DNA from: Bacilli bacterium
Lineage (GTDB): Bacteria > Bacillota_I > Bacilli_A > RF39 > UBA660
DNA: 64,000 nucleotides
Direction of reading: 5' to 3'
Assembly: GCA_017436345.1 (NCBI GenBank)
Contig: JAFSDH010000008.1
Coordinates: 1 to 64,000, forward strand
Made by a program: the position numbers and the translations under genes. Of the stretch, positions 42,736 to 44,845 are shown one piece after another; the stretch's first letter is position 1, and the number at the start of each line of letters is the position of its first letter. The notes beneath the pieces are model-generated. The model had not been told where the DNA came from. It made no database searches and was given only the letters and a program-made list of their open reading frames with translations.

Positions 42736-43503
42736 ATGATTAACTTAAAAAGATTAGCTATAAGACAAGTATTAGAATCATCTGATATAACAAAACCAAT
42801 CCTATTTCCATTTACGGAAGAAGAAATGAAAGAATTACTATTTGATTCAGGTAAAGATAACGAAGGGAACCAATTTTATTCTTTTAATAATATTTTATAC
42901 GCAGAAAGATCAAAAATAGATTTCAGTAATGTAAGTTTTGAAGGAGTTTTTTTAAGAGGTATAGATTTATCAAAAACTCATGGTATTAAATTTAATCCAC
43001 AACTAATATATAATAAAGATTTAAGTGGTACTAAATTAAATGAAAATATTGAAATAATAGGAAATGAAAGAATGAATCAAATAGATTTATTTGAGGGAGT
43101 ATGTATAAAAGGAACCGAATTTAATGGATGTAAAAATGTAATAATTAATCCTCAAACTATTGCCGAAAAAGAGTTTTCTGATGCATCATTAAAAGGTGTA
43201 AGATTTAATGGTTCATTTGATGGAGTAAAATTATGGAAAACTAACTTTAGTGGTAGTATTGGTGCCCAAATAGACCCTAAAACAGTAAGACACCTAGATT
43301 ATTGTGTTTCAACTGATGCTATTTTATTAGATTTACCAGCAGAAAGAGGTGGTTATGGAGCCAAAAACTACAATGAATTATTAAAAAAAAGAGATGAATA
43401 TAAAGAAGCGTTTAAAGAATTAATTTTAGATCAATTACCACCCAAAAAAGAAGAACCTAAAGAAGTAATAGAACAACCAAAACAAAAAAGAAAATGGTTT
43501 TAA
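42736..43503 (+). CDS. Pentapeptide-repeat-like protein with long-period repeats
   Basis: This 255-residue protein carries degenerate pentapeptide-like segments (F-S-N-V-S-F-E-G-V-F-L-R-G-I-D-L, F-N-G-S-F-D-G-V-K-L). On top of these is a longer repeat, seen as F-N-P-Q-L-I, I-N-P-Q-T-I and I-D-P-K-T-V, each followed by a D/E-L/F-S-G/D-like step. The C-terminus is charged and ends in K-R-K-W-F. The fold is probably a right-handed beta helix; function is unknown. Confidence 0.65.
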   Translation: MINLKRLAIRQVLESSDITKPILFPFTEEEMKELLFDSGKDNEGNQFYSFNNILYAERSKIDFSNVSFEGVFLRGIDLSKTHGIKFNPQLIYNKDLSGTKLNENIEIIGNERMNQIDLFEGVCIKGTEFNGCKNVIINPQTIAEKEFSDASLKGVRFNGSFDGVKLWKTNFSGSIGAQIDPKTVRHLDYCVSTDAILLDLPAERGGYGAKNYNELLKKRDEYKEAFKELILDQLPPKKEEPKEVIEQPKQKRKWF

Positions 43504-43531
43504 TTGACAAATAAAAAATAAATAGTATAAT
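43504..43531 (+). promoter_or_regulatory. Promoter of the cysteine synthase leader
   Basis: TTGACA (43504-43509), 16-base spacer, TATAAT (43526-43531). Both boxes are perfect; the -35 starts one base after the upstream gene's stop codon. Confidence 0.92.
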
Positions 43532-43556
43532 TCAAATAAAGAAAGAGGTGCTTAAT

Positions 43557-43616
43557 ATGAAGAAATGTTGTTGTAGCATTATCAAAACTAACAAAATATT
43601 TTTTCATATGGGCTAA
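43557..43616 (+). CDS. Cysteine-run leader peptide 1
   Basis: The 19-residue frame M-K-K-C-C-C-S-I-I-K... has three consecutive UGU cysteine codons (43566-43574) and a GAAAGAGGTG ribosome site 6 bases upstream. It is the first reading frame after a strong promoter and is followed 12 bases later by a strong terminator, then by a second Cys-containing leader and cysteine synthase. This is the layout of an amino-acid attenuation leader that senses charged tRNA-Cys. I could not find a convincing antiterminator by eye. Confidence 0.8.
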   Translation: MKKCCCSIIKTNKIFFHMG

Positions 43617-43627
43617 TATAAAAAATT

Positions 43628-43672
43628 AAACCTTCTTTTATCATAGTCTATATGATAAGAGGAGGTTTTTTT
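43628..43672 (+). terminator. Attenuator-type terminator between the two leaders
   Basis: Bases 43628-43644 pair with 43652-43668 in a 17-bp stem (two G-U pairs) around a seven-base loop, followed by T's. The ribosome site GAGGAGG of leader 2 lies in the 3' arm, so the hairpin also hides it. Confidence 0.9.
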
Positions 43673-43673
43673 A

Positions 43674-43805
43674 ATGTTTAAAAAATTAGTAAATAATATA
43701 CGATGTTGTCTCCTAATAAAAGCAAAAGACAAATATATAAATAAATTAAAAGGAGACAAATATGATAAAGAATTTAATAGGGAATACGCCCTTAATACGT
43801 ATTAA
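43674..43805 (+). CDS. Cysteine-codon leader peptide 2
   Basis: A 43-residue frame starts after GAGGAGG with a 43674 ATG and carries adjacent UGU UGU codons at 43704-43709 (residues 11-12). It runs into the cysteine synthase gene in another frame and stops at 43805. The Cys codons overlap the 5' arm of a hairpin that masks the cysteine synthase ribosome site. A ribosome stalled there would open the hairpin. The layout fits translational attenuation as known for erm and cat leaders; the peptide itself may have no function. Confidence 0.7.
   Translation: MFKKLVNNIRCCLLIKAKDKYINKLKGDKYDKEFNREYALNTY
43706..43759 (+). promoter_or_regulatory. Hairpin sequestering the cysteine synthase ribosome site
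   Basis: TTGTCTCCT (43706-43714) is the exact reverse complement of AGGAGACAA (43751-43759). The 3' arm contains the AAGGAG ribosome site of the gene starting at 43762. The 5' arm begins at the tandem Cys codons of leader 2. Confidence 0.85.
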
Positions 43806-44712
43806 ATTTAAATATAAAAATGTAACTAGAGAAATGTATGTCAAACTAGAATATTATAATTATACAGGAAGCATAAAAGATCGAATAATATATTATATCT
43901 TAAATAAAGCTAAAAAAGAAAAAAGGTTATATGATAATCAACCAATTGTTGAAGCTACAAGTGGTAATACGGGGATATCATTAGCAGCAATTGGAACATT
44001 ATTAAAACATAAAGTACATATTTTTATGCCAGATTGGGCAAGTAAAGAACGAATAGAACTAATGAAATTGTATGGAGCAGAAGTTCATCTCATAACTAAA
44101 GAAGAAGGTGGCTTTCAAGAAGCCATAAAACAAGCAGATGAACTAGCTAAAAAAATAAATGGTTTTAGAACTGATCAATTTAATAATAAAGAGAATGTAG
44201 AAGCGCATTACAACACTACAGGACAAGAAATAGTTGACAAATTACAAAATATAAGTGCATTTATCAGTGGTATAGGTACTGGTGGAACATTAATTGGAAT
44301 AGCAAAAAGATTAAAAGAAAGTAATAAAAATATAAAAATAATCGCATTAGAACCAGAAAATATGAGTTTATTATCAAAAAAGAAAAGAATAGGTTCTCAT
44401 AAAATTGAAGGAATAGGTGATGATTTTATTCCTGATATAGTAGATAAAAACATTATTGATAAGGTTATAACTATACCTGATGAAGACGCTATATATTTAA
44501 GTAGTTTACTAGCTAAAAAATTAGGTCTAGCTGTTGGAATATCATCCGGTGCTAATTTTGCAGCCATAATAAAAAGCAAAATAGATAAAGCTGTAACAAT
44601 ATTCCCAGATGATGCAAAAAAATATTTATCAACAGACTTAATTAGAGATATAAAACCGAAAACGAAAAGTCTTTTAACTGACTTAGAACTGATTAATATA
44701 GAAGTAATATAG
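43762..44712 (+). CDS. cysK: Cysteine synthase
   Basis: This PLP enzyme makes cysteine from O-acetylserine (or a related activated serine) and sulfide. The 316-residue protein has the lysine in T-G-S-I-K-D-R (Lys39), S-G-N-T-G (67-71) that binds the substrate carboxylate, G-I-G-T-G-G-T for the PLP phosphate, and G-I-S-S-G-A-N near the C-terminus. The family includes cystathionine beta-synthase, but the two Cys-codon leaders upstream support cysteine synthesis. No other sulfur gene is adjacent. Confidence 0.9.
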   Translation: MIKNLIGNTPLIRIKFKYKNVTREMYVKLEYYNYTGSIKDRIIYYILNKAKKEKRLYDNQPIVEATSGNTGISLAAIGTLLKHKVHIFMPDWASKERIELMKLYGAEVHLITKEEGGFQEAIKQADELAKKINGFRTDQFNNKENVEAHYNTTGQEIVDKLQNISAFISGIGTGGTLIGIAKRLKESNKNIKIIALEPENMSLLSKKKRIGSHKIEGIGDDFIPDIVDKNIIDKVITIPDEDAIYLSSLLAKKLGLAVGISSGANFAAIIKSKIDKAVTIFPDDAKKYLSTDLIRDIKPKTKSLLTDLELINIEVI

Positions 44713-44752: not shown

Positions 44753-44845
44753 GTTTGTAGCCTTTATAGCTCAAACCGCATTAAAAAGGTTTTAAAACAC
44801 ATATGTGTACCTTAAGAGCGAGTCTAGAATTATTATAAAGGAGGA
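44753..44845 (+). promoter_or_regulatory. rplU 5' leader, probable L21 leader
   Basis: About 90 bases separate the promoter from rplU. They contain GTTTG...CAAAC, AAGGT...ACCTT enclosing the palindrome ACACATATGTGT, and GCTC...GAGC pairings. A structured leader before rplU is known in Bacillota as the L21 leader, thought to mediate feedback by the ribosomal protein. The match is by position and structure, not by a model search. Confidence 0.65.

Follow-up and report, generated by a model that had tools for sequence, protein, structure and literature searches.

Why would a gene for cysteine synthase be preceded by two short reading frames that each carry cysteine codons, with an intrinsic terminator between them? 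The question is raised by a locus in the window, the whole 64,000-nucleotide stretch of DNA analyzed here, which comes from a MAG of 1.7 Mb and in which a promoter, leader 1, a terminator, leader 2, and cysK (from 43762) follow one another from 5' to 3'. The cysK product is assigned to the CysK/CysM subfamily, with a Pfam PALP match and a TIGR01136 cysKM score of 307 bits that lies below the cut-off of 344 for that model; its named relatives belong to uncultured Bacilli, e.g. Candidatus Onthousia. The features are listed below, the promoter and the leader 1 ribosome binding site being predicted from the sequence.

43504-43531, + strand: sigma-70-type promoter, TTGACA-16-TATAAT, 12/12 consensus matches
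43544-43550, + strand: leader 1 ribosome binding site, AGAGGTG
43550-43613, + strand: 1:2 protector hairpin, arms 43550-43576 and 43588-43613, fold of -17.8 kcal/mol
43557-43616, + strand: leader 1 ORF, MKKCCCSIIKTNKIFFHMG, Cys codons at 43566-43574, with an ORF in relatives
43599-43614, + strand: region 2, the antiterminator 5' arm, overlying the last part of leader 1 as far as the first stop-codon base
43628-43672, + strand: intrinsic terminator from the terminator scan, 18-pair stem (43628-43668) plus T run
43645-43660, + strand: region 3, the antiterminator 3' arm, within the terminator loop and 3' arm
43658-43665, + strand: leader 2 ribosome binding site, AGAGGAGG, inside the terminator 3' arm
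43674-43805, + strand: leader 2 ORF, MFKKLVNNIRCCLL..., overlapping the cysK start in another frame
43701-43709, + strand: CGA-TGT-TGT (Arg, Cys, and a variable second Cys), Cys codons at 43704-43709
43706-43714, + strand: anti-SD arm, TTGTCTCCT, exact complement of the cysK ribosome site
43751-43759, + strand: cysK ribosome site, AGGAGACAA, pairs with the anti-SD arm
43762-44712, + strand: cysK/cysM-type cysteine synthase, 316 aa (TIGR01136 cysKM, Pfam PALP)

A first-pass annotation of this DNA had described the same layout, and its placement of the parts was accurate except for one base pair: the terminator that it reported is present, with a stem of 18 pairs, not 17. The consensus promoter that it named matches TTGACA-N16-TATAAT at 12/12 positions; its 19-codon peptide with three consecutive UGU codons is the ORF running from the ATG at 43557 to the TAA at 43616 (peptide MKKCCC..., TGT TGT TGT at 43566-43574); the second frame, whose UGU-UGU codons were said to overlap the 5' arm of a pairing, does so at 43704-43709 within the ORF at 43674-43805; and the 9-nt complementarity claimed between TTGTCTCCT and AGGAGACAA is exact.

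We propose that the region is a tandem cysteine-responsive leader ahead of the cysteine synthase gene, with transcription attenuation in tier 1 and translation attenuation in tier 2, a reading to which we assign a probability of roughly 0.7; a shortage of cysteine would apparently be sensed at two successive steps ahead of enzyme synthesis. In tier 1, a ribosome that stalls at the run of Cys codons in leader 1 would open the 1:2 hairpin, so that region 2 could pair with region 3 as the 2:3 antiterminator; one that continues to the leader 1 stop codon would cover region 2, whereupon the terminator would form; and if leader 1 goes untranslated the 1:2 hairpin would form and the terminator would again win. 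In the read-through mRNA, the segment that begins at the conserved Cys codon of leader 2 would hide the cysK ribosome site (SD), and a ribosome held at that codon would cover the anti-SD arm and free the site. Taken on sequence grounds, the two-tier device is real and conserved, and it most likely functions as proposed: the ORFs, the helices, their conservation, their partner-specific pairing, and the modularity of the two tiers are features of the sequences themselves, and from this anatomy we infer that the leaders are translated, that ribosomes stall on them, and that Cys-tRNA is the signal.

Leader 2 was found at 15 distinct cysK loci, all in one family of uncultured, gut-type Bacilli and always directly upstream of cysK, and 13 of the 15 also carry leader 1 and the terminator; the cysK relatives that carry both leaders mostly have about 57-63% protein identity. 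An exact leader-2 DNA pattern gave eight matches in 386 genomes of the family, all eight immediately 5' of cysK, and none of the 17 matches to a one-mismatch pattern adjoins cysK, which speaks against a chance arrangement.

The first-pass annotation had seen no clear antiterminator in tier 1, and here our results differ. Region 2, which lies over the end of leader 1 and its stop codon (UUUUUUCAUAUGGGCU, 43599-43614), pairs with region 3 (AGUCUAUAUGAUAAGA, 43645-43660) at 15 of 16 positions, G-U included, and the start of leader 1 pairs with region 2 in the 1:2 protector hairpin. A terminator scan of the region found two sites vs 0.3 expected, and homologous terminators are present in relatives between leader 1 and the gene. 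An ORF with 2-5 Cys occupies the place of leader 1 in 13 of the 15 leader-2 loci, its sequence being without conservation beyond the Cys run. The same three tier-1 structures recur in the relatives, built from other sequences; examples are UAAACUCAU:AUGAGUUUA in G119, G251, and G255, and GUGUAAAC:GUUUACAC in G138. When pairing partners were exchanged between nine loci (20,000 permutations), native 2:3 pairs averaged -16.1 vs -11.8 kcal/mol for swapped ones, and native 1:2 pairs -14.8 vs -9.4 kcal/mol (p<5e-5 for each, no permutation scoring better); the 1:2 hairpin is absent from G186.

Folding of the nascent RNA, cut off 20 nt short of where the terminator region ends and modelled for 13 loci, mostly forms the 2:3 pairing with the ribosome at the Cys codons and reduces or abolishes it with the ribosome at the stop codon; in G255 the gain in 2:3 pairing with the ribosome at Cys is small. 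For 9 of the 13 loci, full-length equilibrium folding favored the terminator wherever the ribosome stood, so tier 1 would have to rely on kinetics. With its tandem Cys codons, its intrinsic terminator, and mutually exclusive hairpins set in the model by ribosome position, tier 1 has the predicted layout of a classical trp/his-type attenuator, and would give such an attenuator to a Bacilli lineage rich in T-boxes. The SD of leader 2 has an unpaired probability of 0.00 with the terminator folded; among the loci folded, the antiterminator clearly releases it in some only, and we therefore do not claim a strict relay between the tiers.

In tier 2, the cysK SD is paired in 15/15 loci with RNA that begins at the first leader-2 Cys codon, the helix often extending to the start codon, so that the SD is sequestered by the segment at the putative stall codon, as in erm/cat-type translation attenuation. 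The pairing is GUUGUCUCCU:AGGAGACAA in the window, UGUUAUC:GAUAACA in G885, UUACCU:AGGUAA in G138, and CUUAU-G-AUACUU:AGGUAUAUAAG in G271, and the window duplex that contains TTGTCTCCT:AGGAGACAA outscores 300/300 shuffles of its partner. RNAalifold run on a MAFFT alignment found no consensus structure for the tier-2 hairpin; because the helix shifts register between loci, column-wise covariation is not demonstrable, and the pairing was assessed by partner-swap tests in its place. Over 13 loci, native anti-SD:SD pairs gave -10.5 vs -8.4 kcal/mol for swapped ones (p=0.0004). The earlier proposal was to align relatives and look for conserved Cys codons and covarying hairpins; in leader 2 the first Cys codon is conserved (15/15) and the second is not. 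Loss of the Cys codon or of the pairing in relatives was named in advance as evidence against the device; all 15 loci that have leader 2 keep the first Cys codon and the pairing.

It had also been suggested that a ribosome at the leader-2 Cys codons would cover the arm and expose the cysK site, and the folding model agrees: the mean unpaired probability of the cysK SD is 0.15 in the free RNA and 0.79 once a ribosome is modelled whose A site holds the Cys codon (0.01 and 0.90 in the window), a rise that shows position and not function, since masking paired bases raises accessibility by construction. The SD is more accessible with a swapped anti-SD arm (0.32) or a shuffled one (0.45), and the mean over 43 other window genes is 0.54, although two unrelated genes there likewise have buried SDs.

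The peptide encoded by leader 2 is conserved as well. Its consensus over the 15 loci is M-F-K-K-x-V-N-[S/T]-I-R-C-[C/Y], with divergence straight after: Val at -5 is present in 15/15 with all four codons in use, and is followed by Asn/Ser, Ser/Thr/Asn, Ile/Val, Arg, and Cys. The pN/pS ratio is 0.25 over V-N-x-I-R-C vs 0.64 downstream, i.e. amino acids are conserved up to the putative stall site with synonymous change, the pattern of an arrest peptide. The conserved stretch of peptide ahead of the Cys suggests that hungry-codon sensing is not the whole mechanism, and since a role in the helix cannot explain Val and Ile with free third bases, it hints that the nascent chain aids the stall, which VN[ST]IR may strengthen. 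The codon after Arg-Cys is Cys in 11 of the 15 loci and Tyr in four, and these four copies have a single Cys codon; the second leader-2 Cys codon is thus, by this comparison, presumably dispensable, and a single Cys codon would be a weak sensor if codon hunger alone mattered. All 15 loci have CGA as the Arg codon (43701-43703 in the window) and TGT as the first Cys codon; the window uses CGA for 8% of its Arg codons and AGA for 61%. Slow decoding and helix formation are possible reasons for the invariant CGA.

These observations lend themselves to two further readings of leader 2. We would entertain, tentatively, that it encodes a new cysteine-specific regulatory arrest peptide, VN[S/T]IRC, downstream of a classical cysteine attenuator, with the nascent chain and the Cys codon sensing jointly; the conserved motif offers a concrete candidate for an amino-acid-responsive arrest peptide. 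Somewhat less probable again is that tier 1 senses cysteine as proposed and leader 2 acts chiefly through arrest by its nascent chain: the VN[ST]IRC sequence, and not a hungry Cys codon, would stall the ribosome, and cysteine or some other ligand would serve as cofactor or signal. The conservation that stops at the Cys, the four-codon Val, the low pN/pS ratio, and the single invariant Cys followed by an alternating Cys or Tyr all speak for it, as does leader 1, a plain codon sensor with no comparable conservation. RNA can explain part of the pattern, however: in several loci, the helix that covers the cysK start takes in the ATGTT of CGA-TGT-T, which can account for part of the CGATGTT conservation, and the low pS of 0.26 indicates nucleotide constraint too. 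To our knowledge, moreover, the motif matches no known arrest peptide. The tandem cysteine-responsive reading, in which the Cys codon of leader 2 also reports on Cys-tRNA, remains the one we prefer.

Leader 2 could instead provide translational coupling only, keeping cysK closed unless the upstream frame is translated and leaving cysteine control wholly to tier 1; its stop codon does lie near the cysK start in several loci, overlapping it in six, and the cysK SD is buried in most loci. The position of the stop is nevertheless unconserved, ranging from -31 to +44 relative to the cysK start; conservation attaches to the Cys codon and to its spacing from the SD helix, the first leader-2 Cys codon lying 42-58 nt upstream of the cysK AUG in every locus. 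Since the distance from Cys to AUG is kept while the stop wanders, what is conserved is the position of the Cys and not the end of the ORF. Leader 2 also persists in G884 and G885, where tier 1 is absent, and coupling alone strikes us as improbable. That cysK is under the control of a known riboswitch or T-box, with merely incidental ORFs, has a negligible probability, for although T-boxes are common in the carrier genomes (12 in the window's own), the ORFs are conserved together with their Cys codons, and an Rfam scan of 43480-43830 returned no family at cut-off, including T-box RF00230, its weak matches being microRNA models. Because the carrier genomes have T-boxes, the device is no substitute for a missing T-box system.

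The two tiers occur together and apart. Among 30 cysK loci from whole genomes of the family, several carry both leaders, one (G186) carries leader 1 and the terminator only, and most carry neither; in a cysK tree of 43 loci, 27 are without any leader. Many family members thus keep cysK without a leader, which makes the device lineage-specific. The leader-2 loci cluster in the tree far beyond shuffled labels and fall into separate lineages (the window; G271/G175; L036/G442/G873/G878; G119 and others). G884 and G885 have leader 2 and lack leader 1 and the terminator, their cysK directly following another gene, and G186 has leader 1 and the terminator and has lost leader 2. These single-tier loci nest inside clades having both tiers, and on the tree would be independent losses of one tier; each tier can evidently be kept without the other, and the natural tier-1-only and tier-2-only loci let each be tested separately.

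A leader-2 sequence model separated true loci (at least 36 bits) from background (at most 24 bits) and recovered further loci in one genus. With 395 genomes sampled from the class and 392 from the phylum, it gave no match beyond the family at E 1e-5, as a sequence-only model that diverged relatives may escape. The genus of G271 contributed the additional leader-2 locus G400. In the window's own genus, a cysK relative was not detected in any of the eight other genomes (G001-G008), so cysK and its leader may have arrived by horizontal transfer, or been lost widely. A search of nine carrier genomes for SD-led poly-Cys ORFs returned only cysK leaders and one collagen-like gene, using a pattern that requires GGAG and so misses weaker ribosome sites, e.g. 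that of the window's own leader 1. The sole other SD-led poly-Cys ORF start, at L075 (G255), belongs to a collagen-like GPTGPT repeat protein beginning MNEDIVLEKNDCCC.

The closest precedent is the rtpA (anti-TRAP) leader of B. subtilis, in which Chen and Yanofsky reportedly described, in articles of 2003 and 2004 that PMC11255114 and PMC4027176 cite, tandem transcription and translation sensing of uncharged tRNA-Trp. Its tier 1 is a T-box and its tier 2 a short leader ORF with Trp codons. The cysK leader would share with rtpA two successive tiers, termination and then SD exposure, both reading one aminoacyl-tRNA, the second through a short leader ORF with codons for the sensed amino acid; it differs in having a second leader peptide and Cys in place of a T-box first tier and Trp, and in that the regulated gene is the biosynthetic enzyme itself. 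Tandem sensing of this kind is thus already known, and the two cysteine leader peptides are new as far as found; two leader peptides in series, one per tier, before an amino-acid biosynthesis gene appear not to have been described in the literature searched.

Individual elements have parallels elsewhere. The Cys-codon attenuator motif uORFC-8-2 before cysS in Rhodobacterales (PMC8632094) and the classical trp/his attenuators share with tier 1 a short ORF with codons for the amino acid (Cys in uORFC-8-2), a terminator, and the 1:2 / 2:3 / 3:4 logic; here, unlike in those systems, a second, translational leader follows, and the setting is Bacilli and cysK. Two articles (PMC13236596, PMC9094748) describe the mycobacterial polycysteine leaderless short ORFs (Canestrari 2020) as translation attenuation, and cys leader peptides without terminators have been reported (PMC1262725). 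The mycobacterial ORFs likewise place Cys codons in a leader ORF controlling cysteine genes, but they are leaderless, actinobacterial, and lack a terminator tier, whereas the ORFs here are SD-led and arranged in two tiers; the ATG of leader 1 lies 26 nt past the -10 element, with an SD, and is not a leaderless start. In B. subtilis, the single tlrB leader attenuates both transcription and translation, and stalled ribosomes lift the attenuation (PMC6851288), as we propose here; unlike the present case, it has one leader peptide, a macrolide signal, and a requirement for NusG pausing. Two leader peptides, ermBL and ermBL2, precede ermB (PMC8274638), where stalling frees a ribosome site as it would at cysK, but there the system is antibiotic-induced and translational only.

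Some neighboring arrangements deserve mention in their own right. At L005, L007, L034, and L035 both leaders upstream of cysK are lost and a hairpin resembling the tier-1 terminator is kept, its 3' arm (AGGAGGTGCT) now acting as ribosome site for a cysK that is extended at its N-terminus, as though the start of leader 2 had turned into that of cysK. A Clostridia contig, L037, was considered as a two-leader cysK locus and rejected, its first leader sitting inside the upstream gene. About 110 nt 5' of its cysK, L037 has an ORF that starts with GTG (VIRSCCNDLKFYK) together with a GC-rich hairpin, which might form an independent cysteine leader of one tier. Just 3' of cysK in the window, at 44764-44835 on the + strand and 5' of rplU, lies a Ribosomal protein L21 leader (RF00559).
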